A stretch of 64,000 bases of DNA from Asterias amurensis (Eukaryota; Echinodermata; Asteroidea; Forcipulatida; Asteriidae): assembly GCF_032118995.1 (NCBI RefSeq), contig NC_092652.1, forward strand, positions 20,940,544 through 21,004,543. The letters are read 5' to 3'. The notes beneath the pieces were generated by a model, which saw only the letters and a list, made by a program, of their open reading frames with translations, was not told where the DNA came from and searched no databases. Shown here piece after piece: positions 1,881-53,093 of this stretch. Numbering within the stretch: position 1 is the stretch's first letter; each line of letters opens with the position of its first letter. A program made the position numbers and the translations under genes.

Positions 1881-4800
1881 ATGGCTAATGGAATTGCCAA
1901 CGTCGTCAGCTTTTGCCAACCTCTGGGCACCAGTGAGACAGTTTGTCACAACATTTCCTGCAGCAGATGGATACTTGAGCTGCCATTACTTCCGCCAATA
2001 CCAAATGACTGTAACGGTAAATGTACACGTTGTGATGATTTCAATTATATTTATTGTACATTTAAACAAAATTATTAACAAAATGTAAAGTTGTTTAAAT
2101 TATGTTCACATTACAAATGCCATGGTATAATTTTGTTCATTGTCACAACGTTCCCTGCTGCAGAAGGCCGCCACCAATTCCGGACCCACCATGCCTGCCG
2201 CCTAACGGTAAATTAACACGTTGTGATGATTTCAGATATATATATATTGTACATTTATCATACCAACTGACCAGGTACCGATCACTTGTACCAATTCGTT
2301 CAGTTCATTTGTTCAAGGTGCAACCAGAATGTGCATTTTACTCAATGACACAATGAAACCATCAAACGTCGTGTTATCCCATAGCAAATGATGTGCTCTA
2401 TTGACCCATTTCACCTGACGTCATCAGCAGAAAAATCTTGGATGCGCCATACTGGTGGGCAATTTTACTGTGCGTTTTTATATTAACTCTATGGTGCACG
2501 GTATGCAGTGAAAGTGTGCATTTTAGGCGACGCGGCGTTAATAGACTGTGCAAGTCTCGCGCAGATTTGAACTTCCGGGACCATTGTGGTCCCAACCTTA
2601 TGGAGTTTTACGTTGGGGAGATTTTGTTTCGTCCATTACTTTAGTTTAATATAGTTTATGACCATAAAAATGACATATGTTAAAAATGTAATATTAATTA
2701 ACAACATATATAAAAGTTATAAAAAAGTCAACATAATAACGAAGAAAAACCGATATTTAAACTTGACCTCAGGTCAGGTTACTTGTAAAAAATTAAGAAT
2801 TTGTGCCCATCTCCGATCACGAAACTTACGCAGACGCTTGTTTTGGCCGCGCGGGGTGGAAAGCTTTTTTATTGGTCGCTTAGGCGTCGGCTTCCTCTTT
2901 AAAATGCGTCACGCGTTTATCTAACGCCCTTGCGACCATCGTGCGTCCGCGTATAAACCAGCTTTTAGTAGTTTCACATTTGGGCGTAGATTTACAAAAG
3001 GGGTTTCAAAACATTTAAGATCAAACAAACATCCTTGTCCCAGAGTTTTACTTTTGTCTATACATAGACTTTAACCGATAATTGTGTATTTGTTTAAAAA
3101 GCTAAAACTAACTTAAACACGCTCTAATGGTTATTTTTATTGTTCAAATTCGGCATTAAGAAAAAATTAAAGCAAAGATTTGACTCATAAAAAAATTAAG
3201 TTCTTCAGTTGTCGTGTTTTCTCGCTCCGGTGCGCGCGAGACTTGCAGAGTCTATACACGTAAACCTAACTTTACGGTGGCCCACAACTGTCACGGCAAA
3301 ACAAAAAGCGCCACGGCAAAACAAAAAGCGCCACGGCAAAACAAAAAGCGCCACGGCTAAACAAAAAGCGCCACGGCAAAACAAAAAGCGCCACGGCAAA
3401 ACAAAAAGCGCCACGGCAAAACAAAAAGCGCCACGGCAAAACGAAAAGCGCCGCGGCAAAACAAAAAGCGCCACGGCAAAACGAGAAGCGCCACGGCAAA
3501 ACGCAAAGAGCCACGGCAAAACGAAAAGCGCCGCGGCAAAACAAAAAGCGCCACGGCAAAACGAGAAGCGCCACGGCAAAACGAAAAAAGCCACGGCAAA
3601 ACGCAAAGAGCCACGGCAAAACGCAAAGAGCCACGGCAAAACGCAAAGAGCCACGGCAAAACGAAAAGAGCCACGGCAAAACGAAAAGCATGTGGGTTAA
3701 AGGTCAAAAGGAGTCGCGGTGGTTCGGGATAGGTTATAAATGTTCAGCACGCGCAGTGTGCAGTTGATCTTTAGGCCCACGTAACGTGTACACACGTACA
3801 GAGGTCCCACATTCACCAGGCTTCACGGCACATGTAGCATACGCATAATTATGGGTACCGGTCAACTCGGTCCCAAGCCAACTCGGTCCAAGTCAACTCG
3901 GTCCCAAGTCAACTCGGTCCCAGGTCAACTCGGTCCCACGTCAACTCGGTCCCAGGTCAACTCGGTCCCACGTCAACTCGGTCCCAAGTACAAGTCAACT
4001 CGGTCCTTCGACCAACCTTCATGTTTTTTTAATTATTTTATTGTACTGTTTCGTGTAAGTTAACTTGATAATATTATTATGTTCGTGTAAGTTTACTTAC
4101 TTTTTGTTTTCAACCAACCTTAATGTGTTTTTTAATTTTGATTTTTTTTTATTACGTGTAAGTTAACTGGAAAGTTTTGTTTACTATTATTTTTAACAAA
4201 CATTAATTTTCTCATGTTTTTTTTTAGAAATCGTACTTTTTATTATTTGTTGTATGTGTTTTTGAGAATTTTGTTTTGATAAAATAAACATACACTGAAA
4301 GAAATCAAAGATGATTCAATTGTTAATGTTTGTCAATTAATGTTAATTGTTGAGAGCCATACAAAAAAACAATACTGGTTGAAAGCAAAGAAACATTGAA
4401 CCCATTGTTTTTCAGTTGCATTTACTCGCCCAACACAATTATGGTAATATTCAAAAGTGAAACAAACACATGTTGAATATAAAAACAAATGAGACGCTAT
4501 TGAAGGCATCGAATAAACCCTGGAGATCGGTACACACTCATCTCGTTTAATGTACAAAGTCAAAGGATTTTTTTTTAGTTATTTGTTTTCCAAGTCAAAG
4601 AACTTTCCGTCAACCATACTTACCGAGTTGACTTGGGACCGAGTTGACTCATAAGCATAATTATAGCATGCACCGTTAAGGCTGACGTTTAAAACAAAAA
4701 AGGAAGAAAAGAAATAGAAAGGAAATGCCCTTCTGCAGTAATTGCGGGATTGAACTCAGGAGTGCAGACAATTTTTGTTCCAATTAATGTGGAAAAGGAG

Positions 4801-7791
4801 GTGGAAGAGGAGTGGATTTTAAGTGAGGCAGTAAGTTTAGGCTAAACTGATGTTTTAAATTTAAATTTTAGTATTTTTTATATTTATGTTCTTCTGTTCT
4901 TTTTAAAGATGCTATGTCAGATTTTTGGCCGATTTGACCCAAAAATTTTGATTTAAAATTCAATAGGTATTTTGATGGGGGTCGAGAAAGTTACACGCTT
5001 TCGTTTGAGCCATTGCTCGAAAAGGTCCGCCAGTTATTAGTAGCGGTGAAATAAAGTGCTCAAAATTAGTTTTTGTCGGGATCCCGACAATATATCACGT
5101 GACCAATTCTTATGTGTTTTATAAGAAACGTTTAAATTTTTGTCAAGGTTCCTGACCATTAAAAGTAAAAGGTTAAACTTTTTTGTTAGAGCGGGTAATA
5201 CTCCTGAAATACCATTCACTCAAAACAATCTATAACAGTGATGTATACTTCTACGTACTAGTAGTACTATACTTGTAGTAGTATACAAAGATTAGTTTAG
5301 AACAGAGTGTACTATACTTCTAGCTGCTGGTTAGTACAAAAGTACTCTCCGTATTTTTAGCATATGTTCAGGAACACTGACTGACCACCACAGCTAGAAA
5401 CGTCGTCAGTCCAAACTCCAATTGTCGTGTCATGGAAATTTCAAACGTCTCATGACGAGTCATACCAAGGGCTAAAGCCCTAGAAATTGACACACTTGTC
5501 TGTACTGCCGGTGTACTGACATAAACCAACACGATTTCCGACAACACATTACGTGGGCCTAAAGATCAACTGCGCGTTCTGACCATGTATAACCTATCCC
5601 ATGAATCACCGCGACTCCTTTCGACCTTTAACCCGCATGCTTTTCGTTTTGCCGTGGCTCTTTTCGTTTTGCCGTGGCGCTTTTCGTTTTGTCGTGGCTC
5701 TTTTCGTTTTGCCGTGGCGCTTTTCGTTTTGCCGTGGTTCTTTTTGTTTTGCCGTGGCTCTTTTTGTTTTGCCGTGGGGCTTTTCGTTTTGCCGTGGCGC
5801 TTTTTGTTTTGCCCTGGCGCGTTATGTTTTGCCGCGGCGCTTTTCGTTTTGCCGTGGCGCTTTTTGTTTTGCTGTGGCGCTTTTTGTTTTGCCGTGACAT
5901 TTGTGTGTCACCGTACTAACTGCCCACCAACATGGTGAGCGTGGCATTGGTCGCCGCGTGTGATACGCGTGCAAGGGGTCAATAGCAACATAATTTATCA
6001 CTTCAATCAGTCCATTGCATGATAAGAACTGTATACTACAAACTATACCAAGATCTAGCTATGGTGATTTGACATAGCAGCATTTTGGGGTCAAACAGAA
6101 TGGTCATCGAGACGAGAGGAACAATTTGAATCTGTTACTTTTCACCTGCTTTGAATTTTGAATGTTTTAATCGTGACACATTAGTATTATTGTTTCGATT
6201 GTCTGTATTTCGATGAGTGTTTTATCACCGGGAAAACACTTTTTATGTGTAAGCTCTATAATCATGACTAACGCCGCGTTTGCATTGGACAATTGGGTCT
6301 GGTAAAACTACCGGCCCGTCAAGTTTACCATTTTAAAGTTGGACACTTTTGGTATTACTCAAAAACGTTGTTAGCATAAAAACTTACTTGGTATTGAGTA
6401 ATGGAGAGCTGTTGATAGTATACAACATTGTGAGAAACAGCTCCCTCTGCAGCAGTAACATAGTTTTCGAGAAGAAGTAATTCTCCACCAATTTGATTTC
6501 AAGACCTCAGACTTAGATTTTGAGATCTCGAAATCAAGCATCTGAAAGCACACAACTTCGTGTGACAAGGTTTTTTTTCTTTCATTATTATCTTGCAACT
6601 TCGACGACAAACGTAGCTCAAATTTCCACAGGTTTGTTGCTTTATGCATATGTTGAGATAATTATACCAAGTGCGAAGGCTGGTCTTTGAAAACTACCAA
6701 TAGTGTCCAGTGTCTTTAAGTCCAATGCGAACACGGCTTAAATAAATCGAATTTCATCTAATTTAACTCTCTCTTAATTAATTGTTTATCAACAGTGACG
6801 ACGACTACGACGCCTATGCCCACTACGACACCTATGGACACTACGACACCCATGGACACTACGACACCTATGGACACTATGACACCTATGGACACTACGA
6901 CACCCATGGACACTACGACACCCATGGACACTACGACACATATGCCCACTACGACATCCTTACCTAGTGGCGGTATGACAGAGGTGTCCACCCCGATCTC
7001 TCCACCATCAGATAATGCAGTGTGTTGGTGGATTGTTCTTATAATAGCAGCAGTAGGCCTACTGCTAATAATTCTATTGATCTGGAAGCGAAGGTGAGAA
7101 ACCGATAATTTTTATGGTTGTAAGATCATCAATGGGTTAAAATCACCACTGCCTAATACATGCCTTTACGACTCACAACCAACAATCCTGGGTCAGTGAT
7201 TGACCCAGCGGTGTCAACATGACCCGGGTTAGATCACACTGACACAGAAGCCGACTCAGAATTTCACAGTCATTAAAATTTTAATTCAATTGGCTTTATC
7301 CAATGTTTTCAGTTTGCTGTACCTCATTTTATGGAACAATCTCCCTCTTCATCATAATTTATAGCCGAATTATCGCCTTTTTGCTATGCAGGTCTTTCAG
7401 GGTAATTAACTGCCTCTGTTCTTCAAAACCTCGTGACGAAGTTCCACCTGACGTTGGACTTTTTGTTGAGCCTGTCGAGCTTGTTGAGCCTGGCGTTATT
7501 GAGTTGCATGCACGTTCAACTGACGTGGAACCGCCGCCACATCGTTACGAGGAGATTGGAAATGCAGCACCAGTACAGCCAGAATCTGTGCTGCTCTACG
7601 AGACAAGTTTTGGTAATGAAGGGCAACTTCGTGGTGTACATGCTGACCATGACGTGGAACTACATGCTGACCATGCAGGCGTTGAAGAACGTTCAACTGA
7701 CGTGGAAACAACCCCCAATATTTACGAGGGAATCAGTAATGCAGCACCAGTAGAGCCAGAAGCTAAACTGTTCAATAAAATTTCCATTTGA
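1881..7791 (+). CDS. Gene A1: small single-pass membrane protein with mucin-like stalk and tyrosine-motif tail (3 exons)
   Basis: Exons are 1881-2016, 6796-7093 and 7392-7791 (136, 298 and 400 bp), giving 277 residues. Junctions are G|GTAAAT, CAACAG|, AAG|GTGAGA and TGCAG|G, with intron phases 1 and 2. Residues 1-45 hold four cysteines. Residues 46-119 are a stalk of six-residue repeats of the form TTTPMD, likely O-glycosylated. Residues 122-142 are a membrane span (starting WWIVLIIAAVG) followed by Lys-Arg-Arg. The tail has two juxtamembrane cysteines and two copies of a 59-residue repeat with YEEI at 197 and YEGI at 256. The ATG context is strong (A at -3, G at +4). No cleavable signal peptide is visible, so an N-out signal-anchor topology is likely. 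I know no named family with this architecture. A surface receptor or adhesion role is inferred only from layout. Intron 1 carries a large foldback element. Confidence 0.7.
2141..2207 (+). pseudogene. partial duplicate of A exon 1 within intron 1
   Basis: This segment repeats the second half of exon 1 and its donor (TGTCACAAC ... CTAACG|GTAAAT), followed by the same downstream intron bases. Read in the exon frame it gives a Pro/Cys-rich string (RPPPIPDPPCLPPN). No good acceptor sits before it in the needed phase, so it is probably a relic or an optional exon. Copies lie at 19967-20033 and 33561-33627. Confidence 0.5.
2542..3254. mobile_element. 713-bp MITE nested in the foldback element
   Basis: Inverted ends TAGACTGTGCAAGTCTCGCGC and GCGCGAGACTTGCAGAGTCTA, near TA. 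The same element sits at 33961-34673 with identical length. The foldback copy in A2 has the empty site at 20366/20367, so the insertion boundary is defined by comparison within this window. No coding capacity was recognised. Confidence 0.7.
3292..3689. repeat. left-arm tandem array, about 20 units of 20 bp
   Basis: The consensus unit is CACGGCAAAACAAAAAGCGC. Unit variants are ordered: AACAAAAAGCGC types prevail at the outer end and AACGCAAAGAGC types at the inner end. Because 20 is not a multiple of three and the unit has no stop in any frame, long but meaningless open frames run on both strands. Confidence 0.85.
3837..4671. mobile_element. second, nested foldback-like element with 16-bp repeats
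   Basis: A GCAT..ATAATTATG motif and the repeat GTCAACTCGGTCCCAA lie at the left (nine units, 3860-4008). Their inverted complements lie at the right (about 4620-4671, two units). The interior is AT-rich with no recognised gene. Copies lie at 21109-21889 (six left units) and 35316-36117 (seven left units). Confidence 0.6.
5639..5897. repeat. right-arm tandem array, about 13 units of 20 bp
   Basis: Inverted complement of the left-arm unit (TTTTGCCGTGGCGCTTTTCG). Variant order mirrors the left arm, with AAAAGAGC-type units innermost, as expected if both arms descend from one array by inverted duplication. Confidence 0.85.
6273..6737. mobile_element. two nested MITEs in A1 intron 1
   Basis: The outer inverted ends are GCCGCGTTTGCATTGGAC and GTCCAATGCGAACACGGC. 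Inside sits a second element (6333-6719) with TTAAAG..GGACAC / GTGTCC..CTTTAA ends. That inner family recurs at 54498-54886 and 55025-55413. The nested pair is also present in A2 (inner part 23811-24198) and A3 (37806-38193). Confidence 0.65.
7190..7224. promoter_or_regulatory. GGGTCA/TGACCC inverted half-sites in A1 intron 2
   Basis: GGGTCA (7190-7195) and TGACCC (7201-7206) form an inverted pair with a five-base spacer. A GTGTCA-ACA-TGACCC pair follows. The five-base-spaced pair is also present in B genes (12883-12899), so it predates the A/B split. The half-site resembles nuclear-receptor half-sites, but binding is conjecture. Confidence 0.35.
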
Positions 7792-11784: not shown

Positions 11785-13709
11785 ATGGCTAGTGGAATTG
11801 CCAACGTCGTCAGCTTTTGCCAACCTCTGGGGACCAGTGAGACAGTTTGTCACGTTCCCAGCAGCAGAAGGCTGATGTGTGACCTGCCAGAACTTCCGCC
11901 AATACCAATTGACTGTAGCGGTAAATTTCAATTATATTTATTGTGCATTTATTAATTAAACAAAATTAACAAAGTGTAAAGTTCAAAATGCAAATGGCAT
12001 GGAATATTGTTGTTCCTAATTTCAATTATATTTTACCAGTGCTCATTTTTGTAAATACATTGCCTTTTACAATCATACAAACTGGCAAGGGGCTGATTCG
12101 TTCAGTTCATCGATTAAAATATCCAAGATGCAACCAGAATGTGCATTTTACTCACTCAATGACACAATGAAACTATCAAACATTGTACTATCACATAGCA
12201 ACTGATGTGCTCTACCCATAGCAACAACATTTGGAGTCTTAGTTTTAACCATTCACTTCAATCAGTTCATTGCATAATAAGAACTGTATACTACAAACCA
12301 TTCAAAGATCAAGCTGGTCACCTCTGGTGATTTGACAAAGCAGCATTTTGGGGTCAAACCTAATGGTTATTGAGGGGGGGGGAACCCAAATACAGGCACT
12401 ATTATTAGTTCTATATTCATTTAAAAATCCTGCTTGTGGCTTGTAGTGTTTTTTTGTACTGTTTTGTGGTAAAACAAATAATTTTAGGTAATTTTTGCAA
12501 ATTTGATGGAAAAATAATTGCAAAAATTACATAAAATTATATTTCGGCCTTTATATATACATTGTATATATAAAGGCCGAAATGAATTTCCCATCGTGGA
12601 TAAAAAAAAAATGAATTGAAACTGAAATTGAATTGAAATTCTCTTTTGTACTATATAACAGCCAATCCACCAACGTGCACACCAACACGTCCAGAGAATC
12701 CATACTGTTGGATTATTCTGGGATGTATCATGCTTTCAGCAGCAGTATTGTTACTTTTTGTTATCTGGAGGGGAAGGTAAGACGCCGAAAGCTTTATATC
12801 GTTGTGATCAAAGAGTTTAACTCACCATAAGTTATACCCAATTCGTGCCGTTGTGACTCATAGAACACACTTTAAAAATCCCGGGTCAGCGATTGACCCA
12901 GATTTCGGGTCCCCGTGGGGGTATGACCCATTATGGGTCAACATGACCCAAAACGTGTGTCACAATGACCCGGGTCAGGTCACAATGACCCGGGTCAGAT
13001 CACACTGACGTAGAATCCGAGTCAACAGCTTATTTTGTAATCGTTTCCGGGTCAGTCCTGGGACACGGAATCTGTCACTTCTGACCCTTGTTTTTGTTTT
13101 TTAAAATTACGGTACTGTGTTACCATTGCATAGCTGAAAAACACAAAATAAAACGAGAAAGAGCAGTCTTAATAATTGAATTTTATTTTACTAATTTATC
13201 CAAGTGAAAGTAAAGATTTCGAGCCATATCAGAGAGTGGCGAGTATGACACCTGTATAATCATTTTTTTTTTTTTTTTTTTCAAAAATAATAAATTTAAT
13301 AAAAGTAATGATAGAAATATCTTCCCAAGTATTACCCAAATATATGTGCCATAATATTTGTTTACCCTGCAATTTATTTTGTCTTACTGCTCCCACAATG
13401 TACTGTGTTCTCAACGTAATTACCCTGTAAATTTGTGACTTCAGTCATTTTGAAATAAAGATGTCATCGTAAAAGTCATAGTCTTCTCCTTTTTCGTTAC
13501 TCCATGTTCTTCATCATTTAACCCCAAATTATCGCAACTTTTTGTTTTGCAGGTATTTCAAAGTCATTTTCTGGATCAATTCTCATGACAACGAGTCAAG
13601 GTCTGGTACCGATGGTCCACCTGATGTTGACGTTGAGTTGGATGAAACTGACGTTGAAACGACGCCACAATGTCACAGGAGATCGGAAATCCAGCAGTCC
13701 ACTAACTAA
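11785..13709 (+). CDS. Gene B1: short-stalk membrane protein with truncated tail (3 exons)
   Basis: Exons are 11785-11920, 12662-12776 and 13553-13709 (136, 115 and 157 bp), giving 135 residues, with phases 1 and 2 as in A1. The first exon has the same length as in A genes and about 75% identical residues by eye. Its cysteines fall at 12, 22, 32 and 44. The stalk is only about 14 residues. The membrane span is residues 61-81 (CWIILGCIMLSAAVLLLFV), then Trp-Arg-Gly-Arg. The tail, residues 85-135, is acidic but loses the YEEI motif: compared with A and B2 the DNA around that motif has shifted frame and reaches a stop soon after. Worn tail repeats continue downstream in what is now 3' DNA. Function unknown. 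Consistent phases across all copies make this model fairly secure. Confidence 0.68.
12488..12583. repeat. two adjacent hairpins in B1 intron 1, one a 43-bp palindrome
   Basis: The larger has 21-base arms (ATTTCGGCCTTTATATATACA) around a single base at 12562. The smaller pairs GTAATTTTTGCAA with TTGCAAAAATTAC. Both persist in B3 (about 43964-44058) and AB4 (about 51908-52003, with a slightly changed loop) and are largely lost in B2. Confidence 0.6.
12883..13010. promoter_or_regulatory. cluster of GGGTCA/TGACCC motifs in B1 intron 2
   Basis: Contains the five-base-spaced inverted pair (12883-12899), a three-base-spaced pair GGGTCAACATGACCC (12935-12949) and two TGACCCGGGTCA palindromes. Similar clusters lie at about 30729-30860, 44355-44490 and 52290-52400. 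The three-base-spaced pair matches estrogen-response-element spacing. Any function is inferred. Confidence 0.35.
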
Positions 13710-14388
13710 ACTGTTCTACGAGCGAAGTCTTTGGTAACGTTTAGGGCAACCTCGTGTTGAACTACTCTCATGACGTTGAACTACATGTTGACCCCGACGT
13801 TGAACTATACATGCACGTTCAACTGACGTGGAAGCAATTAACCCCAACGTTTACGAGGGAATCAGTAATGCAGCACCAGAGAGCCAGAATCTAAGTTACT
13901 CTACGAGTCGAGTTTTGGTAACGTGTAGGGCAATCCTGTGCTGTAGGCCTCACGCTGACCCTGACGTTGAACAACATTTTGACCCAACGTTGAACTATAT
14001 GCACGTTCAACTGACGTTGGATCGACACACAACTTGTTGCCAACGAGGGAATCGGTAATACAGTAGAGCCAGAATCTAAGCTGCTATACGAGTCAAGTTT
14101 TGGTAACGTTTAGGGCAACCTCGTGTTGAACTACATGTTGACTCTCATGACGTTGAACTACATGTTGACCCTGATGTTCAACTATACATGCACGTTCAAC
14201 TGACGTGGAAACGACCCCAAATGTTTACGAGTGAATCAGTAATGCAGTAGAGCCATAATCTAAATTGCTATGAGTCAAGTTCTGGTAAAGTGTATAGGGC
14301 AACCCCCTGCTGTAGGCCTACATGCTGATCCTGACGTTGTATGTGGACCCTGACGTTGAACAATGGTTATGAGTCGAGGGGATCACTA
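13710..14388 (+). pseudogene. worn tail-repeat DNA downstream of B1
   Basis: Several degenerate copies of the tail-exon repeat follow the B1 stop (recurring TACGAGGGAATCAGTAATGC and CGTTCAACTGACGTGGAA), with many stops. They show that the ancestral B tail was longer and repeat-bearing like A. Equivalent stretches lie at 32562-33110, 45184-45862 and 53094-53300. Confidence 0.65.
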
Positions 14389-14390
14389 TA

Positions 14391-15407: not shown

Positions 15408-15764
15408 TATAAATGCAGCACAAGTAGAGCAGCATCAGTAAAGCCATAAACTAAACTGCGCATAGAGCTACGTACGGCACTTATATGCTTCTAATTATAT
15501 AAACTAATAATGACGAGCGTCGTGTATAGAAATGTATACTGTTTTCTGCATTGAATTCACTTTGTGTGGATCGTTTTAGTGAGGGGGTGTGGGTCACCCT
15601 CTCATGTAGGGGGGGGGGGGTCCAGTAGGCCTACCTATCGGATAATCCCCAAGTTTAAATCCGAGGTTGAAATTCTTTTATAATTAGCCCGGTTCATATA
15701 CACGGGGCGCAAACAATAACCTGACGCGCCGCAGGGCAATATGTTATTAAGGAGAATGGACGAG

Positions 15765-19706: not shown

Positions 19707-22700
19707 ATGGCTAATGGAATTGCCAACGTCGTCAGCTTTTGCCAACCTCTGGGCACCAGTGAGACAGTTTGTCACAACATTCCCTGCAGCAGATGGATAC
19801 GTGAGCTGCCATTACTTCCGCCAATACCAATTGACTGTAACGGTAAATGTACGCGTTGTGATGATTTCAATTATATTTATTGTACATTTAAAAAAAATTA
19901 TTAACAAAATGTAAAGTTGTTTAAATTATGTTCACATTACAAATGTCATGGTATAATTTTGTTCCTTGTCACAACGTTCCCTGCTGCAGAAGGCCGCCAC
20001 CAATTCCGGATCCACCATGCCTGCCGCCTAACGGTAAATTAACGCGTGATGATTTCAGATATATATATATATTGTACATTTATCATACCAACTGACAAGG
20101 TACCGATCACTTGTACCGATTCGTTCAGTTCATTTGTTCAAGGTGCAACCAGAATGTGCATTTTACTCAATGACACAATGAAACCATCAAACGTCGTGTT
20201 ATCCCATAGCAAATGATGTGCTCTATTGACCCATTTCACCTGACGTCATCAGCAGAAAAATCTTGGATGCGCCATACTGGTGGGCAATTTCACTGTGCGT
20301 TTTTATATTAACTCTATGCTGCGCGTTATGCAGTGAAAGTGTGCATTTTAGGCGACGCGGCGTTAATACACGTAAACCTAACTTTCACGGTGGCCCACAA
20401 CTGTCACGGCAAAACAAAAAGCGCCACGGCAAAACAAAAAGCGCCACGGCAAAACGAAAAGCGCCACGGCAAAACAAAAAGCGCCACGGCAAAACAAAAA
20501 GCGCCACGGCAAAACAAAAAGCGCCACGGCAAAACAAAAAGCGCCACGGCAAAACAAAAAGCGCCACGGCAAAACAAAAAGCGCAACGGCAAAACAAAAA
20601 GCGCCACGGCAAAACAAAAAGCGCCACGGCAAAACAAAAAGCGCCACGGCAAAACAAAAAGCGCCACGGCAAAACGCAAAGAGCCACGGCAAAACGCAAA
20701 GAGCCACGGCAAAACGCAAAGAGCCACGGCAAAACAAAAAGCGCCACGGCAAAACGCAAAGAGCCACGGCAAAACGCAAAGAGCCACGGCAAAACGCAAA
20801 GAGCCGCGGCAAAACAAAAAGCGCCACGGCAAAACGAGAAGCGCCACGGCAAAACGAAAAAAGCCACGGCAAAACGCAAAGAGCCACGGCAAAACGCAAA
20901 GAGCCACGGCAAAACGCAAAGAGCCACGGCAAAACGAAAAGAGCCACGGCAAAACGAAAAGCATGTGGGTTAAAGGTCAAAAGGAGTCGCGGTGGTTCGG
21001 GATAGGTTATAATGTTCAGCACGCGCAGTGTGCAGTTGATCTTTAGGCCCACGTAACGTGTACACACGTACAGAGGTCCTACATTCACCAGGCTTCACGG
21101 CACATGTAGCATACGCATAATTATCGGTACCGGTCAACTCGGTCCCAAGCCAACTCGGTCCAAGTCAACTCAATCCCAAGTCAACTCGGTCCCAGGTCAA
21201 CTCGGTCCCAAGTCAACTCGGTCCTTCGACCAACCTTCATGTTTTTTTAATTATTTTATTGTACTGTTTCGTGTAAGTTAACTTGATAATATTATTATGT
21301 TCGTGTAAGTTTACTTACTTTTTGTTTTCAACCAACCTTAATGTGTTTTTTAATTTTGATTTTTTTTTATTACGTGTAAGTTAACTGGAAAGTTTTGTTT
21401 ACTATTATTTTTAACAAACATTAATTTTCTCATGTTGTTTCTCAGAAATCGTACTTTTTATTATTTGTTGTATGTGTTTTTGAGAATTTTGTTTTGATAA
21501 AATAAACATACACTGAAAGAAATCAAAGATGATTCAATTGTTAATGTTTGTCAATTAATGTTAATTGTTGAGAGCCATACAAAAAACAATACTGGTTGAA
21601 AGCAAAGAAACATTGAACCCATTGTTTTTCAGTTGCATTTACTCGCCCAACACAATTATGGTAATATTCAAAAGTGAAACAAACACATGTTGAATATAAA
21701 AACAAATGAGACGCTATTGAAGGCATCGAATAAACCCTGGAGATCGGTACACACTCATCTCGTTTAATGTACAAAGTCAAAGGATTTTTGTTTTAGTTAT
21801 TTGTTTTCCAAGTCAAAGAACTTTCCGTCAACCATACTTACCGAGTTGACTTGGGACCGAGTTGACTCATAAGCATAATTATAGCATGCACCGTTAAGGC
21901 TGACGTTTAAAACAAAAAAGGAAGAAAAGAAATAGAAAGGAAATGCCCTTCTGCAGTAATTGCGGGATTGAACTCAGGAGTGCAGACAATTTTTGTTCCA
22001 ATTAATGTGGAAAAGGAGGTGGAAGAGGAGTGGATTTTAAGTGAGGCAGTTAGTTTAGGCTAAACTGATGTTTTAAATTTAAATTTTAGTATTTTTTATA
22101 TTTATGTTCTTCTGTTCTTTTTAAAGATGCTATGTCAGATTTTTGGCCGATTTGACCCAAAAATTTTGATTTAAAATTCAATAGGTATTTTGATGGGGGT
22201 CGAGAAAGTTACACGCTTTCGTTTGAGCCATTGCTCGAAAAGGTCCGCCAGTTATTAGTAGCGGTGAAATAAAGTGCTCAAAATTAGTTTTTGTCGGGAT
22301 CCCGACAATATATCACGTGACCAATTCTTATGTGTTTTATAAGAAACGTTTAAATTTTTGTCAAGGTTCCTGACCATTAAAAGTAAAAGGTTACACTTTT
22401 TTGTTAGAGCGGGTAATACTCCTGAAATACCATTCACTCAAAACAATCTATAACAGTGATGTATACTTCTACGTACTAGTAGTACTATACTTGTAGTAGT
22501 ATACAAAGATTAGTTTAGAACAGAGTGTACTATACTTCTAGCTGCTGGTTAGTACAAAAGTACTCTCCGTATTTTTAGCATATGTTTAGGAACACTGACT
22601 GACCACCACAGCTAGAAACGTCGTCAGTCCAAACTCCAATTGTCGTGTCATGGAAATTTCAAACGTCTCATGACGAGTCATACCAAGGGCTAAAGCCCTA

Positions 22701-29612: not shown

Positions 29613-32561
29613 ATGGCTAGTGGAATTGCCAACGTCGTCAGCTTTTGCCAACCTCTGGGGACCAGTGAGACAGTTTGTCACGTTCCCAGCAGCAGAAGGC
29701 TGATGTGTGACCTGCCAAAACTTCCGCCAATACCAATTGACTGTTGCGGTAAATTTCAATTATATTTATTGTGCATTTATTAATTAAACAAAATTAACAA
29801 AGTGTAAAGTTCAAAATGCAAATGGCATGGAATATTGTTGTTCCTAATTTCAATTGTCTTTTACCAGTGCTCATTTTTGTAAACAATTGCCTTTTATTAT
29901 CATACAAACTGGCAAGGGGCTGATTCGTTCAGTTCATCGATTAAAATATCCAAGATGCAGCAGAATGTGCATTTTACTCAGTGACACAATGAAACTATCA
30001 AACATCGTACTATCACATAGCAACTGATGTGCTTTACCCATAGCAACATCATTTGGAGTCTTAGTTTTAACCATTCACTTCAATCAGCTCATTGCATAAT
30101 AAGAACTGTATACTGCAAACCATAAAAAGATCAAGCTGGTCACCTATACTATGGTGATTTGACATCGCAGCATTTTGGGGTCAAACCTAATGGTTATTGA
30201 GGGGAGGAAACCCAAATACAGGCACTATAATTAGTTCTAAATTCATTAAAATATCCTGCTTGTGGCCTGTAGTGTTTTTTGTACTGTTTTATGGTAAACA
30301 AAATAATTTTATGTAATTTTTGAAAACTTGATGCATAAAGACGGAAATGAATTTCACATCGTGAATAATAAAATGAACTGAAACTGAAATTGAATTGAAA
30401 TTTTCTGTTGTACTATAACAGTCGATCCACCAACATGCCCGCTGTTGTGCACTGATGGTACTACGACACCTGGGCCCGGTTGCGGTACCGCTCCAATGCC
30501 ACCTGATAGTACCACTCCAATGCCACCTGATGGCGGTACTTGTATACCTTGTATACCTAGTATACCTATAGCAGTTATGGCCATGGCCATAGTTATAACT
30601 GTATTTATCTGGAAGAGAAGGTAAGACGCCGAGAGCTTCATATTATCGTCGTGATCAAAGAGTTTAACTCACCATAAGTTATATCTAATTCGTGCCGTTG
30701 TGACTCATAGAACACACTTTAAAAATCCCGGGTCAGTGATTGACCCAAGATTCCGGGTCCCCGTGGGAGTATGACCCATTATGGGTCAACATGACCCAAA
30801 ACGTGTGTCACAATGACCTGGGTCAGGTCACAATGACCCGGGTCAGATCACACTGACGTAGAATCCGAGTCAACAGCTTATTTTGTAATCGTTTCCGGGT
30901 CAGTCCTGGGACACGGAATCTGTCACTTCTGACCCTTGTTTTGAAAGAGCAGTCTTAATAACTGAATTTATTTTACTAATTTATCCAAGTTAAAGTAAAG
31001 ATTTCGAGCCATATCAGAGAGTGGCGAGTATGACACATGTATAATCATTTACTTTTTTCAAAAATAATCAATTTATGGTAGTGATAGAAATATCTTCCCA
31101 AGTATTACCCAAATAATATATAATAACAATAATAATAATATGGATTTATAACGCGCACTTCTCCAGAAAACCAATCTAGGCGCCTACACAAAATGAAAAC
31201 AATAGAAAATCAAACATAATGTAACTTATACCCAATGAAAGTCTAAGTGAACAAGTGTGTTTTTAGTTCCCTCTTGAAATTGTTCAGTGATGTTGTTTGG
31301 CGAAGTGAGACAGGGAACTTATTCTATAGGGCAGGAGCAGCTTTGGCGAAAGCACGGTCTCCGTACCTAATTGTTCTAGACCTTGGCTCTACCAGCAAGT
31401 GAGATCCAGCAGACCATAGGGCACATCTGCTGTGCTATAGTTGAGATTAGTTCACAAATATACTGTGGGGCTTGTCCATGCAGAACTTTGAACACAAGAA
31501 GGCAGATTTTGAAGGTGATCCTCTTTGCAATGGGGAGCCAATGTAGGCGTCTTATATAGGACAGCCGAAATGCGGTCGTATTTTCTGGCTTGGACAACGA
31601 CTCGAGCAGCATTATTATGTACACGTTGCAGACGAGAAGTAGATGTAGCTGGAAGCCCAACCAAGAGCAAGTTGCAACAATCCAAGCGGGAGGAGACCAG
31701 AGCATGGATGACTTTCTCAGCTGTATCCAGAGACAAGTATTTGCGAATTTTGGCTATGGAAGTTAGCGCTTTTGCACACGCTTGAGATGTGTGATTCCAT
31801 GTTGAACAGCTTGACGAACACAACTCCAAGATTTATAAATCCAACGGTTCTTTTCAGAACCACCCCCAACTCATTTAGAGATAGTTATTACATGGTGTTA
31901 CCGCAAATTCTTCTTTCCACCATGCAAAGTTTCAAATCCTATTTAACTCCTAGATTGCGTGCACTATTGGAGGCGGACAGATCGTGGTTGTTGATTGAGA
32001 ACTGTTGTGATGTAAACTTTGCACGGTCGTGTCGCGATCCCACAACAAGAACCTGTGCCATAATAATATTTGTTAACCCTGCTATGTATTTTGTCTTACT
32101 GCTCCCACAATGTATTGTGTTCTCAACGTAATTACCCTGTAAATTTGTGACTTCAATCGTTTTGATGTCATCGTAAAAGTCTTCTCCTGTTTTGTTACTT
32201 CATGTTCTTCATCATTTTAACCCCAAATTATCGCAACTTTTTGTTTTGCAGTTATTTCAAAGACTGGTTAAATTCTTCAAAATCTCATGACAACGAGTCA
32301 ATTTCTGGTACCAATGGTCAACATAATGTAGTACTTCAAGAAGTTGAGTCTGTCAAGTCTGTTGAGTCTTGCGTTGAGTTGCATGCACGTTCAACTGACG
32401 TGGAACCGCCGCCACATCGTTACGAGGAGATTGGAAATGCAGCACCAGTGCAGCCAGAATCTAAGCTGCTCTACGAGACAAGTTTTGGTAACGTTGAGGG
32501 CAACCCTCGTGATGAACTACATGTTGACTCCCATGACGGAACTACCCTGACGTTGAACTAA
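29613..32561 (+). CDS. Gene B2: membrane protein with Pro/Cys-rich stalk and YEEI tail (3 exons)
   Basis: Exons are 29613-29748, 30422-30620 and 32252-32561 (136, 199 and 310 bp), giving 214 residues, phases 1 and 2. The stalk is intermediate between A and B1: it has TTTPGPG, two PMPPD-like repeats and extra cysteines before the span (about residues 93-109, VMAMAIVITVFIW, then Lys-Arg-Ser). The first base of exon 3 is T rather than G, turning the junction Arg into Ser. The tail keeps RYEEI at 168-172 and LLYETSF at 184-190, unlike B1 and B3, so it is the least reduced B gene. Intron 2 has gained an L2-like LINE (31113-32052). The next cluster member downstream (A3) lacks a first exon of its own. 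Confidence 0.66.
31113..32052 (-). mobile_element. L2-like LINE fragment in B2 intron 2
   Basis: On the - strand, from about 31829 to 31300, reverse transcriptase C-terminal motifs appear (SRLDCCNLLLVGLP, LQRVHNNAARVV, LHWLPIAKRITFKI, YGDRAFAKAAPAL). They are spread over shifted frames with a stop in the last motif. The 3' end carries ATT-type microsatellite. B1, B3 and AB4 lack it at the same point of intron 2, so it inserted after B1 and B2 separated. Confidence 0.75.
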
Positions 32562-33140: not shown

Positions 33141-33960
33141 GGACAAGTATAAAGCAGCAATAGTAAAGCTAGAAACTAAACTGCGCATAGAGCTACATAG
33201 AGTTCGGCATTTATATGCTTCTAGTTATTATATATTAACTAGTATGAAGAGCATCGTTTATATACAAGTCTGTATACTGTTTTATTTTTGCATTGAACTC
33301 ACTTTGTGTGGATCGTTTTGGTGAGAGGGTGTGGCTCATCCTCTCATGTAGGGGGTGTCCAGTAGGCATACCCATCGGATAATCCCCAAGTTTAAATCCA
33401 AGGTTGAAATTCTTCCATAATCAGCCCGGTTCATAATATAAATTATGCGTTGTGATGATTTCAATTATATTTATTGTACATTTAAACAAAATTATTAACA
33501 AAATGTAAAGTTGTTTAAATTATGTTCACATTACAAATGCCATGGTATAATTTTGTTCCTTGTCACAACGTTCCCTGCTGCAGAAGGCCGCCACCAATTC
33601 CGGATCCACCATGCCTGCCGCCTAACGGTAAATTAACACGTGATGATTTCAGATATATATATATATTGTACATTTATCATACCAACTGACAAGGTACCGA
33701 TCACTTGTACCGATTCGTTCAGTTCATTTGTTCAAGGTGCAACCAGAATGTGCATTTTACTCAATGACACAATGAAACCATCAAACGTCGTGTTATCCCA
33801 TAGCAAATGATGTGCTCTATTGACCCATTTCACCTGACGTCATCAGCAGAAAAATCATGGATGCGCCATACTGGTGGGCAATTTCACTGTGGGTTTTTAT
33901 ATTAACTCTATGGTGCACGGTATGCAGCGAAAGTGTGCATTTTAGGCGACGCGGCGTTAA

Positions 33961-38269: not shown

Positions 38270-39265
38270 TGACGACGACTACGACGCCTATGCCCACTAC
38301 GACACCTATGGACACTACGACACCCATGGACACTACGACACCTATGGACACTACGACACCTATGGACACTACGACACCCATGGACACTACGACACCCATG
38401 GACACTACGACACATATGCCCACTACGACATCCTTACCTAGTGGCGGTATGACAGAGGTGTCCACCCCGATCTCTCCACCATCAGATAATGCAGTGTGTT
38501 GGTGGATTGTTCTTATAATAGCAGCAGTAGGCCTACTGCTAATAATTCTATTGATCTGGAAGCGAAGGTGAGAAACCGATAATTTTTATGGTTGTAAGAT
38601 CATCAATGGGTTAAAATCACCACTGCCTAATACATGCCTTTACGACTCACAACCAACAATCCTGGGTCAGTGATTGACCCAGCGGTGTCAACATGACCCG
38701 GGTTAGATCACACTGACACAGAAGCCGACTCAGAATTTCACAGTCATTAAAATTTTAATTCAATTGGCTTTATCCAATGTTTTCAGTTTGCTGTACCTCA
38801 TTTTATGGAACAATCTCCCTCTTCATCATAATTTATAGCCGAATTATCGCCTTTTTGCTATGCAGGTCTTTCAGGGTAATTAACTGCCTCTGTTCTTCAA
38901 AACCTCGTGACGAAGTTCCACCTGACGTTGGACTTTTTGTTGAGCCTGTCGAGCTTGTTGAGCCTGGCGTTATTGAGTTGCATGCACGTTCAACTGACGT
39001 GGAACCGCCGCCACATCGTTACGAGGAGATTGGAAATGCAGCACCAGTACAGCCAGAATCTGTGCTGCTCTACGAGACAAGTTTTGGTAATGAAGGGCAA
39101 CTTCGTGGTGTACATGCTGACCATGACGTGGAACTACATGCTGACCATGCAGGCGTTGAAGAACGTTCAACTGACGTGGAAACAACCCCCAATATTTACG
39201 AGGGAATCAGTAATGCAGCACCAGTAGAGCCAGAAGCTAAACTGTTCAACAAAATTTCCATTTGA
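38270..39265 (+). CDS. Gene A3: A-type exons 2 and 3 only, no exon 1 in place
   Basis: Exons are 38270-38567 and 38866-39265 (298 and 400 bp), same lengths and phases as A1, both fully open. The stalk has the same repeat number as A1, and the tail has YEEI and YEGI. The duplication junction at about 33448 lies downstream of where exon 1 should be, and no A-type first exon or TATA box is present between B2 and here. The gene is therefore either silent or uses a first exon from upstream. Exon 1 of B2 (29613-29748) ends in the right phase to splice to it, but that is inference. Intact frames suggest the loss is recent. Confidence 0.6.
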
Positions 39266-43187: not shown

Positions 43188-43220
<33 letters not shown>

Positions 43221-43257: not shown

Positions 43258-45183
43258 ATGGCTAGTGGAATTGCCAACGTCGTCAGCTTTTGCCAACCTC
43301 TGGGGACCAGTAAGACAGTTTGTCACGTTCCCAGCAGCAGAAGGCTGATGTGTGACCTGCCAGAACTTCCGCCAATACCAATTGACTGTAGCGGTAAATT
43401 TCAATTATATTTATTGTGCATTTATTAATTAAACAAAATTAACAAAGTGTAAAGTTCAAAATGCAAATGGCATGGAATATTGTTGTTCCTAATTTCAATT
43501 ATATTTTACCAGTGCTCATTTTTGTAAATACATTGCCTTTTACAATCATACAAACTGGCAAGGGGCTGATTCGTTCAGTTCATCGATTAAAATATCCAAG
43601 ATGCAACCAGAATGTGCATTTTACTCACTCAATGACACAATGAAACTATCAAACATTGTACTATCACATAGCAACTGATGTGCTCTACCCATAGCAACAA
43701 CATTTGGAGTCTTAGTTTTAACCATTCACTTCAATCAGTTCATTGCATAATAAGAACTGTATACTACAAACCATTCAAAGATCAAGCTGGTCACCTCTGG
43801 TGATTTGACAAAGCAGCATTTTGGGGTCAAACCTAATGGTTATTGAGGGGGGGGGGAACCCAAATACAGGCACTATTATTAGTTCTATATTCATTTAAAA
43901 ATCCTGCTTGTGGCTTGTAGTGTTTTTTTGTACTGTTTTGTGGTAAAACAAATAATTTTAGGTAATTTTTGCAAACTTGATGGAAAAATAATTGCAAAAA
44001 TTACATAAAATTATATTTCGGCCTTTATATATACATTGTATATATAAAGGCCGAAATGAATTTCCCATCGTGGATAAAAAAAAAAATGAATTGAAACTGA
44101 AATTGAATTGAAATTCTCTTTTGTACTATATAACAGCCAATCCACCAACGTGCACACCAACACGTCCAGAGAATCAATACTGTTGGATTATTCTGGGATG
44201 TATCATGCTTTCAGCAGCAGTATTGTTACTTTTTGTTATCTGGAAGGGAAGGTAAGACGCCGAGAGCTTTATATCGTTGTGATCAAAGAGTTTAACTCAC
44301 CATAAGTTGTACCCAATTCGTGCCGTTGTGACTCATAGAACACACTTTAAAAATCCCGGGTCAGCGATTGACCCAGATTTCGGGTCCCCGTGGGGGTATG
44401 ACCCATTATGGGTCAACATGACCCAAAACGTGTGTCACAATGACCCGGGTCAGGTCACAATGACCCGGGTCAGATCACACTGACGTAGAATCCGAGTCAA
44501 CAGCTTATTTTGTAATCGTTTCCGGGTCAGTCCTGGGACACGGAATCTGTCACTTCTGACCCTTGTTTTTGTTTTTTAAAATTACGGTACTGTGTTACCA
44601 TTGCATAGCTGAAAAACACAAAATAAAACGAGAAAGAGCAGTCTTAATAATTGAATTTTATTTTACTAATTTATCCAAGTGAAAGTAAAGATTTCGAGCC
44701 ATATCAGAGAGTGGCGAGTATGACACCTGTATAATCATTTTTTTTTTTTTTTTTTCAAAAATAATAAATTTAATAAAAGTAATGATAGAAATATCTTCCC
44801 AAGTATTACCCAAATATATGTGCCATAATATTTGTTTACCCTGCAATTTATTTTGTCTTACTGCTCCCACAATGTACTGTGTTCTCAACGTAATTACCCT
44901 GTAAATTTGTGACTTCAGTCATTTTGAAATAAAGATGTCATCGTAAAAGTCATAGTCTTCTCCTTTTTCGTTACTCCATGTTCTTCATCATTTAACCCCA
45001 AATTATCGCAACTTTTTGTTTTGCAGGTATTTCAAAGTCATTTTCTGGATCAATTCTCATGACAACGAGTCAAGGTCTGGTACCGATGGTCCACCTGATG
45101 TTGACGTTGAGTTGGATGAAACTGACGTTGAAACGACGCCACAATGTCACAGGAGATCGGAAATCCAGCAGTCCACTAACTAA
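43258..45183 (+). CDS. Gene B3: short-stalk membrane protein, near twin of B1 (3 exons)
   Basis: Exons are 43258-43393, 44137-44251 and 45027-45183 (136, 115 and 157 bp), giving 135 residues. Visible differences from B1 are few: Glu19 becomes Lys, Pro59 becomes Gln, and Arg82 after the span becomes Lys. All are missense, none disrupts the frame. The truncated tail without YEEI is shared with B1, so the tail frameshift predates the 31-kb duplication. The upstream TTG microsatellite is a little longer than in B1. Role unknown. Confidence 0.66.
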
Positions 45184-45862: not shown

Positions 45863-45864
45863 TA

Positions 45865-46880: not shown

Positions 46881-46882
46881 TA

Positions 46883-49524: not shown

Positions 49525-51011
49525 ATCAATGATTTTGTTCCTGATCTTCCAGCGGTAAAACATTACAAATATGTCGATGATCTGACTTTAAGTCAGACCC
49601 TCTCTAATCCTAACGAGAGCTCCAACATGCAAAATGTGCTTAATGACCTAAATCAATGGACTGATCTGAATAAAATGAAACTTAATCCCGCAAAATGCCA
49701 GTCCATGAATATCAGTTTTCAACGTAACCAACCTGATCCACCCACCTTTGACATTTTAGATTCTCAAATTAATCGAACTGATTGTTTGAATTTGTTGGGA
49801 ATTTATATACAGAGTAATTTGAAGTGGGATTCCCAAGTGAACAACATGTGTGGTAATTTTAACCGTAGACTGTTCTTTTTACGCCAGCTTAAACGTTGTT
49901 TTATTTCTGTCAAGAAAGTTTTATTAACTGTAAATGTTATGTATGTCCGACCCACTATCGAATACGCCTGTCCTGTTTGGTACTCTGGACTCACTAAAAC
50001 ACAACTCATGACCCTTGAAAGGTTACAAAAAAGGGCTTTTCGTATCATTCTGGCTGGTCAGCCAAATACACCAACATCATATGTTGAAGTATGCCAATTG
50101 TTCAGTTTACCTACAATCACTGATAGACTGAGTCATTTATTTGTCAATTTTGGTAAGACCTTGTTTGAATCTGAAAATTACAGGCACTGGCTCCCACCAA
50201 ACAAAAACAACAACTTGCGGAATGCCAACAAAATGTGCCCCCAAAATGTAGAACTGGTCGTTACAAAAATAGTTGCATTCCATCCCTTGTCCAAGCACTC
50301 AACAATAGCTCTTGATTTTTGTTCACTCAGCTTGCTTGCCTTTTGTCCCCAACCCTTCGCCTTGTTCCTTTAAGGTGAATTGCTGTGCAATTTTTTGTTT
50401 TATCTAATTTGTTACTGGCACTAGCCAGTTTGCCCTTTTAATGTATAAAAACAGATTGTAGTTCTTAATGTTTTTTTGTACTTTTTAAACATTTCGATTT
50501 TTGATAAATCTCTGTATTTTAAACTCAATTCAGCTTGTGGCTGCAATGTTTGAATGTGTTTTAATAAACCAATAATAATAAAAAAAGAAATGCTTAAAAA
50601 GCGCAATTCAGTACTGCAAGTACTCTCAATGCGCTTTACAAACAAATAAACAAATTTATACCAGAAAAAGCAACAAATAAACTAAACAATACAATATTAC
50701 AAAAAAAGATTGAGTGAATAAGTGAGTTTTGAGATGGGATTTGAAGAGGTCCGGGTTTATCTGGGAACAGAGGGTAGCAGGAGGAGAGTTCCAAAGTGTG
50801 GGTGCGCTGAAAGTAAAGGTTCTTTTACCGTACGTTTTTGTTCTGTATGGGGGGAACTTGTAGGAGAAGCTGTGAAGAGGATCTATAAGTGACCTTGTCG
50901 GGGTGTATGGCGTTATCAGTTCAGAAATGTAATGAGGGGAGAGACCATGGACAGCATTGAACGTGAGGAGCAGGACTTTGTACTGTATGCGAGCATTATA
51001 ATATCATTAAT
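49525..51011. mobile_element. tail-to-tail LINE pair, unit 3 copy
   Basis: The + strand LINE (49525 to about 50583) again starts just before YVDDLTL. One base fewer in a C-run near 50240 shifts its C-terminus. The - strand LINE (about 50584-51011) keeps its open C-terminal frame, including a three-base in-frame insertion. Position is the same as upstream of A2. Confidence 0.7.
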
Positions 51012-51171: not shown

Positions 51172-53093
51172 ATGGCTAATGGAATTGCCAACGTCGTCAG
51201 CTTTTGCCAACCTCTGGGCACCAGTGAGACAGTTTGTCACAACATTCCCTGCAGCAGATGGATACGTGAGCTGCCATTACTTCCGCAAATACCAATTGAC
51301 TGTAACGGTAAATGTACACGTTGTGATGATTTCAATTATATTTATTGTACATTTAAGCAAAATTATTAACAAAATGTAAAGTTGTTTAAATTATGTTCAC
51401 ATTGCAAATGCCATGGTATAATTTTGTTCCTTTCATTGGCCTTTCAATTGTCTTTTACCATTGCTCATTTTTGTAAACAATTGCCTTTTATTATCATACA
51501 AACTGGCAAGGGGCTGATTCGTTCAGTTCATCGATTAAAATATCCAAGATGCAACCAGAATGTGCATTTTACTCAGTGACACAATGAAACCATCAAACAT
51601 CGTACTATCCCAGCGCAACTGATGTGCTCTACCCATAGCAACATCATTTGGAGTCTTAGTTTTAACCATTCACTTCAATCAGCTCATTGCATAATAAGAA
51701 CTGTATACTACAAACCATTCAAAGATCAAGCTGGTCACCTATGGTGATTTGACAAAGCAGCATTTTGGGGTCAAACCTAATGATTATTGAAGGGGGGGGG
51801 GGAACCCAAATACAGGCACTATTATTAGTTCTTAATTCATTTAAATATCCTGCTTGTGGCTTGTAATGTTTTTTGTACTGTTTTTTGGTAAAACGAACAA
51901 TTTTAGGTAATTTTTGCAAATTTGATGGAAAAAAATTGCAAAAATTACATGAAATTATATTTCGGCCTTTATATATTAAATTGTATATATAAAGGCCGAA
52001 ATGAATTTCCCATCTAGGATAAAAAAATTGAATTGAAACTGAAATTGAATTGAAATTCTCTTTTGTACTATATAACAGCCAATCCACCAACAACTCCAAC
52101 ACCAGAGAATCCATACTGTTGGATTATTCTGGGATGTATCATGCTTTCAGCAGCAGTATTGTTAGCTTTTTGTATCTGGAAGGGAAGGTAAGACGCCGAG
52201 AGCTTTATATCACTGTGATCAAAGAGTTTAACTCACCATAAGTTATACCTAATTCGTGCCGTTGTGACTCATAGAATACACTTTAAAAATCCCGGGTCAG
52301 TGATTGACCCAGATTTCGGGTCCCCGTGGGGGTATGACCCATTATGGGTCAACATGACCCAAACGTGTGTCACAATGACCCGGGACAGATCACACTGACG
52401 TAGAATCCGAGTCAACAGCTTATTTTGTGATCGTTTCCGGGTCAGTCCTGGGACACGGAATCTGTCACTTCTGACCCTTGTTTTTGTTTTTTAAAATTAC
52501 GGTACTGTGTTACCATTGCATAACTGAAAAACACAAAATAAAACGAGAAAGAGCAGTCTTAATAATTGAATTTTATTTTACTAATTTATCCAAGTGAAAG
52601 TAAAGATTTCGAGCCATATCAGAGAGTGGCGAGTATGACACCTGTATAATCATTTCTCTTTTTTTTTTCAAAAATAATAAATTTAATAAAAGTAATGATA
52701 GAAATATCTTCCCAAGTATTACCCAAATTATGTGCCATAATATTTGTTTACCCTGCAATTTATTTTGTCTTACTGCTCCCACAATGTACTGTGTTCTCAA
52801 CGTAATTACCCTGTAAATTTGTGACTTCAATCATTTTGAAATAAAGATGTCATCGTTAAAGTCAGTCTTCTCCTTTTTCGTTACTCCATGTTCTTCATCA
52901 TTTAACCCCAAATTATCGCAACTTTTTGTTTTGCAGGTATTTCAAAGTCATTTTCTGGATCAATTCTCATGACAACGAGTCAAGGTCTGGTACCGATGGT
53001 CCACCTGATGTTGACGTTGAGTTGCATGCAACTGACGTTGAAACGACGCCACAATGTCACAGGAGATCGGAAATCCAGCAGTCCAATAACTAA
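51172..53093 (+). CDS. Gene AB4: chimera of A-type exon 1 and B-type exons 2-3
   Basis: Exons are 51172-51307, 52079-52187 and 52937-53093 (136, 109 and 157 bp), giving 133 residues. Exon 1 and the promoter are A-type (Asn at residue 3, CHNIPCSRW). From about 51400 the intron and everything after is B-type. The early intron looks like B2 (AACAATTGCCTTTTATTATC) but exon 2 and the tail look like B1/B3, so the B part is mosaic. Exon 2 is two codons shorter, and the span ends LLAFCIW instead of LLLFVIW through two offsetting one-base changes that restore the frame. Splice sites and phases are intact, so an A head on a B body can be made. It is the last member of the cluster. Confidence 0.65.

Follow-up and report, generated by a model that had tools for sequence, protein, structure and literature searches.

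Paired immune receptors, of which Siglec, CD300, and KIR are examples in addition to CEACAM, offer one point of comparison for a tandem cluster of small single-pass membrane-protein genes at one locus of the sea star Asterias amurensis. The cluster is a real family and lies in a stretch of 64,000 nucleotides (C5:20,940,544-21,004,543, hereafter the window), where its copies, in array order, are labeled A1, B1, A2, B2, A3, B3, and B4. As in CEACAM, tandem copies carry like heads on unlike tails, with recombination near the head exon (PMC2832619, in the part available). The window family differs in that no Ig or lectin domain is recognized in it, no signal peptide is seen, there is no immunoreceptor tyrosine-based inhibitory motif (ITIM) or activation motif (ITAM), and there is no known ligand.

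Among echinoderms, the Sp185/333 (SpTransformer) genes of sea urchins are lineage-restricted to the phylum, tandem, rich in repeats, and diversified by recombination, a likeness by description only, and by the same kind of comparison they differ in having two exons and in encoding secreted proteins that carry a leader and are not known to have a transmembrane segment. Transmembrane adaptor proteins (TRAPs) of the LAT type are not known to have a signal peptide. LAT, NTAL/LAB, PAG/Cbp, and LIME combine a single transmembrane segment, juxtamembrane cysteines, and a multi-tyrosine tail, as the A-type copies do (PMC2803307, in part). The ectodomain of these adaptors is a few residues long (PMC4861716, in part), whereas 60 to 123 residues precede the membrane segment in the six complete window copies. 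Several tyrosine motifs in a long tail are found in the A-type only, the palmitoylation motif CxxC of LAT, LIME, NTAL, and PAG is absent, the A-type having CLC there and the B-type no cysteine, and no Pfam match links the window proteins to the TRAP sequence family. Because of the longer ectodomain and the CLC in place of CxxC, the A tail may be said to work like, but not to be, a transmembrane adaptor.

Exon anatomy, topology, and a model for the two types

A first-pass annotation had proposed six open first exons of exactly 136 bp followed by seven open second and seven open third exons, with intron phases 1 and then 2, and these exons, their coordinates, and their phases hold in every copy. 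The ATG exons start at 1881, 11785, 19707, 29613, 43258, and 51172, open with ATGGCTARTGGAATTGCC, and are each closed by the donor G/GTAAAT. All exons lie on the forward strand and make up six full genes and one headless gene, with 20 of 20 exons open. The description needs amending in that the copies are of two types, A and B, and that A3 (38270-39265) is without a first exon; its translation runs to 232 residues.

Type A has a Thr-rich stalk, a CLC motif near the membrane, and a tail with YEEI and YEGI. In A1 (277 residues), an exon scan places the head in exon 1 (1881..2016, 45 codons plus 1 base), the stalk and transmembrane segment in exon 2 (6796..7093), and the CLC and acidic tail in exon 3 (7392..7791); the two cysteines are residues 152 and 154, ten and twelve residues past the hydrophobic segment. 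A2 (19707..19842, 24275..24536, and 24835..25588; 383 residues) has a stalk 36 nt shorter than that of A1 and a tail of one YEEI unit and three YEGI units built on a 177-nt repeat, and A3 consists of exon 2 (38270..38567) and exon 3 (38866..39265). Type B is short and has no cysteine at the CLC position. B1 (135 residues) joins a B-type head (11785..11920) to a short stalk and transmembrane segment (12662..12776) and a short tail (13553..13709), and B3 (43258..43393, 44137..44251, and 45027..45183; 135 residues) and B4 (51172..51307, 52079..52187, and 52937..53093; 133 residues) are built likewise, B4 with an A-type head. B2 (29613..29748, 30422..30620, and 32252..32561; 214 residues) has a distinct stalk and transmembrane segment and ends early after one A-like YEEI unit.

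The acidic tail with tyrosine motifs that the first-pass annotation ascribed to the whole family is present in the A copies and B2, with two YxxI motifs in A1, four in A2, two in A3, and one (YEEI) in B2, but not in B1, B3, and B4, whose tails have no YxxI and only a juxtamembrane YFKV. Each A tail has a single YEEI and from one to three YEGI. Downstream of B1, self-matches mark degraded tail units at 13710..14361, which contain stops; B3 and, partly, B4 are likewise followed by such units. The repeat units of the tail (177 nt) and stalk (18 nt) are both divisible by three, and changes in unit number therefore keep the frame. The annotated four-cysteine head stands as the usual count, but positions and number vary: cysteines are at 12, 22, 27, and 44 in A1, A2, and B4 and at 12, 22, 32, and 44 in B1 and B3, and B2 has an extra cysteine at 45. 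Beyond the head, 59-62% of the ectodomain of A1, A2, and the A. rubens protein P0001 (described below) is Thr, Ser, or Pro.

These exons are unlike chance products of base composition. Exon 2 of A1, A2, B1, B2, and B4 was put through 2000 dinucleotide shuffles per copy; none combined an open frame with a segment as hydrophobic as the real one, and such a segment by itself turned up only once, for B2. Shuffled third exons were open in 1 of 1000 for A1, 0 of 1000 for A2, 1 of 1000 for B2, and 83 of 1000 for B1. Openness of exon 1 alone is weakly informative because about 14% of 2000 shuffles (A1, B1) are also open. The second exons of A1 and B1 have no mutual blastn match, nor one with B2, at E 1e-4, and all three encode a membrane span with basic residues after it. 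Lengths divisible by three account for 8 of 8 scored coding indels and for 6 of 35 indels of introns and flanking DNA (Fisher p 2e-5). This p-value is generous: scoring of exon 3 between A and B stops at the frame loss of B tails, the same copies recur among the non-coding pairs, and B4 exon 2 contains, by eye, a compensating +1/-1 pair that the aligner treated as substitutions and that stands outside the score.

The single membrane span with a basic C-terminal side was confirmed by a hydrophobicity and charge scan. The segment has a Kyte-Doolittle value of 2.47 to 3.46 in 10 of 10 proteins (the seven window copies, the A. rubens proteins P0001 and P0004, and the neighboring gene C), and in the same ten, which are related and not independent, net charge is 0 to -3 over the 15 preceding residues and +2 to +5 on the other side. 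Since this pattern fits the positive-inside rule, the N-terminus is likely outside and the C-terminus inside, as in type III (leaderless) membrane proteins. AlphaFold, run on P0001 with four sequences (mean pLDDT 52.2), is confident only in a helix at 76-107 that coincides with the membrane span. No signal-peptide-like start was seen by eye in the family proteins, the NCBI models P0001-P0004 begin at the head ATG, and in A1 an in-frame stop read by hand lies upstream of the head at about 1743. An upstream signal-peptide exon seems unlikely, given that the acceptor-like AG just before the head gives another phase (by hand) and that no such exon enters P0001-P0004, although it keeps some probability from P0005, which starts further up. 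A short copy of exon 1 that lies at 2145-2205, inside A intron 1, was rejected, since use of the preceding AG as acceptor yields 44 nt and breaks the phase (by hand).

YEEI is the textbook ligand preference of Src-type SH2 domains. Our preferred reading, which we hold tentatively and as not quite probable, is a leaderless single-pass family with the N-terminus outside, in which long-tailed A proteins dock SH2 proteins and B proteins are non-signaling or competing counterparts. The ectodomain would consist of the head of about 45 residues, usually with four cysteines, and a stalk that is Thr/Pro-rich in the A-type. The A form would be a membrane-anchored docking platform whose YEEI and YEGI tyrosines would be phosphorylated and bind SH2 proteins (Src-family kinases, for example), and its juxtamembrane CLC may be acylated. 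B forms present the same head with tail motifs mostly lost and might either give no signal or act as competitors.

Relatives, gene C, and constraint

B3 and B4 are, letter for letter, P0002 and P0003, each held by NCBI as an "uncharacterized protein [Asterias amurensis]", and they alone of the window copies surfaced among the protein matches listed. Two A. rubens genes, both also named "uncharacterized protein" and lying on contigs that each measure 225,230 bp, are homologous across head, transmembrane segment, and tail classes: P0001 (LOC117305895 isoform X2; E 3.1e-105 for the transmembrane segment and tail) is A-type, with YEEI and YEGI in its tail and a stalk shorter than in window A copies, and P0004 (LOC117305888) combines an A-like head with a B-like tail in which there is no YxxI. 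The P0001 head is without C12 and the P0004 head without C27. P0005, an unnamed ENA frame of 162 residues, runs from an upstream in-frame Met through leader and head into intron 1. A profile recovered P0001-P0005, and no further relatives appear among the protein-search matches listed; these searches scored about 8000 candidates within length limits and without gene C as a query, and may miss other sea-star relatives. As far as seen, the family appears confined to Asterias, whose species A. amurensis and A. rubens split about 28 million years ago (PMC11090083, in part).

The family had been called unrecognized, with no match to a named family. This is accurate as to its name in the protein, Pfam, and PDB searches made, but not as to its existence, as the family is already in databases, unnamed. 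Pfam at E up to 1 returned only DUF4381 (0.2) for A1, only a HisZ-like match (0.19) for B2, and nothing for B1, and at E up to 0.1 nothing for P0001 or P0004. PDB matches of A1 to NosK (E 0.041) and of gene C to a CMRF35-like structure (E 0.0092) are not credible, nor is the best Pfam match of gene C, DUF4834 (E 0.013, below its cut-off). A literature search gave no paper naming LOC117305895 or LOC117305888, and the main text of a coelomocyte proteome paper, in the part available, holds no word beginning LOC117 (PMC13409769).

A translated search of the flanks (40 kb upstream and 10 kb downstream of the window) located gene C about 15 kb upstream, on the same strand (C5 20,923,005-20,923,128, 20,925,171-20,925,378, and 20,925,775-20,926,012; phases 1 and 2; 189 residues). 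Its head is 40-46% identical to those in the window, and its layout comprises four cysteines in A-type order (by eye), a Ser/Thr stalk, a transmembrane segment, and a tail without YxxI. A head profile built from two A heads, one B head, and P0004, with C left out, finds gene C at E 8.9e-10 in 314 kb. Whole-genome searches (491.5-Mb genome), whose counts are lower bounds, gave at least 6 matches to exon 1 DNA, all inside the window, at least 27 to P0001, 23 of them in the cluster and the other 4 weak and on C13 (E 0.001 to 0.77), and at least 15 to gene C, 9 of them in the cluster and the other 6 at E 0.2 or worse. The matches found would place the family at this one cluster.

Gene C is the best outgroup for any selection test on the family, and against it the head is constrained. 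A2 and C heads differ with proportions of synonymous (pS) 0.70 and nonsynonymous (pN) 0.34 changes per site, a pN/pS of 0.48 (95% bootstrap 0.29-0.81; Fisher p 8e-4), and B1 and C with a pN/pS of 0.58 (0.34-0.97; p 0.015). The head thus seems to have been under purifying selection over the longer time, the only sign of such selection, though discovery of gene C by protein similarity biases pN/pS down, the comparison covers 40 codons, and silent sites are nearly saturated.

That bias is the first of several points that weigh against an SH2-docking family with a leaderless N-terminus. A and B heads in the window have nonsynonymous divergence (dN) of 0.18-0.21 and synonymous divergence (dS) of about 0.17, a dN/dS of about 1.1 to 1.3, and recent copies, compared over gap-free exon stretches, differ by 13 nonsynonymous and 1 synonymous changes (p 0.15 versus neutrality), a count on which positive selection was considered and set aside as not significant. 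A-type exons 2 and 3 are conserved no better than intron 2, the compared stretches of all three having 0 differences, and B1 and B4 differ at 11 of 109 positions in exon 2 versus 33 of 639 and 13 of 749 in introns 1 and 2. The SH2-type tail is not family-wide, because the gene C tail has no YxxI, and the CLC of the A-type is not the CxxC of LAT-type adaptors. The start of P0005 makes a longer N-terminus possible in that sequence. No expression evidence was seen for the window copies, and no A-type A. amurensis model appears among the protein matches listed, where one may sit in the 90% cluster of P0001 (3 members). The tail tyrosine motifs fit neither ITIM nor ITAM nor the immunoreceptor tyrosine-based switch motif (ITSM) as defined in the available part of PMC2832619: HRYEEI and NIYEGI have no I/L/V/S or T at -2, and their spacing of 59 residues is not that of an ITAM, which rules out ITIM and ITAM membership under those definitions.

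Elsewhere in the window, exon 3 of A1 versus B2 has dN 0.26 and dS 0.27 (ratio 0.95), the remaining exon 3 pairs with dS above 0 have ratios of about 0.7 to 0.8, the A2 tail units 0.5 to 0.8, and the whole exon 3 of A1 and A3 differs at 1 of 400 positions. Window comparisons alone favor weak constraint. The dN/dS check that the first-pass annotation had proposed therefore comes out divided, with window heads near 1, which leans toward refuting it, and the head under purifying selection when compared with gene C.

Weak constraint is the starting point of a different account, in which the copies are young paralogs, one or two of them functional along with gene C and the rest drifting, and in which decay of the B tails is pseudogenization. 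Window heads with dN/dS near 1 agree with this, as do the 13 to 1 recent changes that cannot be told from neutrality, the stop-containing unit remains behind B tails, and the absence of exon 1 from A3. It has to contend with 20 of 20 open exons, with 8 of 8 scored coding indels in frame, with a membrane segment kept across unlike exon 2 sequences, with NCBI models for B3, B4, and two A. rubens genes, and with a head constrained against gene C, and we regard it as rather unlikely. The ordinary view of the locus would be one more lineage-specific, fast-evolving tandem family whose gene models can now be completed.

Shuffled heads and tails, and the size of the array

B4 is an A-head/B-tail chimera joined in intron 1. 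Its A-type promoter, exon 1, and the start of intron 1 meet a B-type intron and exons 2 and 3 near 51436 (breakpoint approximately 51436..51445). A3 starts within A-type intron 1, near 33439, which is why its exon 1 is missing; the junction between sequence downstream of B2 and A-type intron 1 lies at 33436..33439, and the A3 promoter is missing too. In B2, the YEEI unit is nearly identical in DNA to that of A and the surrounding sequence differs, which looks like conversion or crossover. Unequal crossing-over and recombination in intron 1 and exon 3 would have put the same heads on different tails and altered the number of tail and stalk units.

Upstream of the heads, a possible core promoter, TATATAA, lies at 1782..1788 on the forward strand, 99 bp before the A1 ATG, and TATATA occurs 101 and 99 bp before the A2 and B4 ATGs; it was not found before B1-B3. 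In 25-base bins between about -75 and +50 of the ATG, the likeness of A2 and B1 is 84-96%, with bins from -250 to -75 at 12-72%, and because likeness around the ATG is far above that further upstream, the 5' leader and first codons of these two copies were probably conserved or converted together.

Heads shared between tail classes also suggest paired recognition receptors, in which the common head binds a ligand, long and short tails give opposite or decoy outcomes, and recombination keeps heads alike. One head does occur on two tail classes through the direct intron-1 swap in B4, whose head matches that of A2 at 44 of 45 residues although the stalks differ. In A. rubens, the heads of P0001 (long, with two YxxI) and P0004 (short, with none) share 41 of 45 residues (by eye), on contigs of equal length. 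The N domains of mammalian CEACAM on unlike tails are kept similar by gene conversion (PMC2832619, in part). Yet P0001 is as near to A2 (41 of 45, by eye) as to P0004, and species-wise homogenization of heads is for that reason unsupported; in addition, no ligand-binding fold is recognized, the head model is of low confidence and built from four sequences, and there is neither ITIM nor ITAM nor a known ligand. We consider paired receptors unlikely. The role in surface recognition or signaling put forward in the first-pass annotation is a possible one, with tandem variation in stalk and tail in its favor; no ectodomain fold is recognized, no signal peptide is seen, and the tyrosine motifs are in some tails only.

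Part of the copy number could instead be haplotypes of one individual placed in tandem by the assembly, because divergence between units 1 and 3 (0.89% and 0.60% substitutions on the two longest stretches) is near the heterozygosity of 0.96% reported for an A. amurensis assembly, which may not be the one behind the window (PMC11090083, in part). Against such an artifact, divergence reaches 2.0 and 2.7% in two shorter stretches of units 1 and 3 and 3.65-3.8% between B3 and B4. Most stretches of units 1-2 and 2-3 are 1.25-3.2% apart, with 0.64-0.74% across exons 2-3 and 10.9% in one stretch that pairs unlike tail units. B2, A3, and B4 are also structurally unlike other copies. The published assembly relied on HiFi reads and Purge_haplotigs, and 0.7% of its BUSCOs are duplicated (PMC11090083, in part). 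An artifact of this kind seems quite unlikely to us.

Bolder, and very doubtful, is a sea-star paired system in which recombination in intron 1, and perhaps splicing from B2 exon 1 into the headless A3, would place short leaderless heads on signaling and non-signaling tails, so that tail output evolves apart from head recognition without Ig-type domains in these proteins. The least probable account, a mucin-like adhesion or trafficking protein in which YEEI and YEGI are YxxPhi endocytic signals instead of SH2 sites, can draw on the Thr/Ser/Pro content of the A-type ectodomains and on the listing of Yxx(L/M/V/I/F) as an endocytic motif (PMC2832619, in part), but the tails of B1, B3, B4, P0004, and gene C are without YxxI, and YEEI is also the Src-type SH2 preference.

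To return to the preferred model of docking A forms and competing B forms, if it is true, the heads and tails of a small membrane protein have been recombined between tandem neighbors in a restricted lineage, where the chimera coexists with both of its parents and a neighboring outgroup gene allows the changes to be polarized. The proteins would also be candidate small surface markers for sea-star biology.

Candidate genes and other elements

The next match of the head profile after gene C is a candidate gene D at about C5 20,911,013, where an ATG one codon after an in-frame stop opens a cysteine-rich, head-like exon with a phase-1 donor. Profiles built without D give E 0.043 and 0.11, and an exon 2 can be drawn that matches in phase and encodes a hydrophobic stretch; no exon 3 was found there. 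Its membership in the family is tentative. The four weak P0001 matches on C13 fall at 18.86-18.99 Mb, and one frame read there is uninterrupted for 476 residues, with a leader-like start, an Ig-like look, a Ser/Thr stalk, a transmembrane segment, and a tyrosine-rich tail. Its likeness to the family was judged by eye to be compositional, and it was rejected as a relative; the region is a possible immune-type receptor cluster.

Within the window, minus-strand frames at 61918-64000 that run past the window end are long, charged, and proline-rich; the part in the window has no Pfam match, and the frames recall what we take to be the C-terminal part of cyclin T. Frames at 18166-18852 and 49627-50373 look reverse-transcriptase-like by eye, the former with no Pfam match at E up to 0.1. 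At 14387-15411 and 45861-46884, inverted repeats of about 275 bp flank a reading frame in a transposon-like arrangement, with no credible Pfam match for the frame at 14387-15411. Finally, an inverted-arm element built of a 20-bp minisatellite occupies 3273-5915, with related arms in intron 1 of A2 and A3, and is reminiscent of what are presumably the foldback/TU elements of sea urchins.

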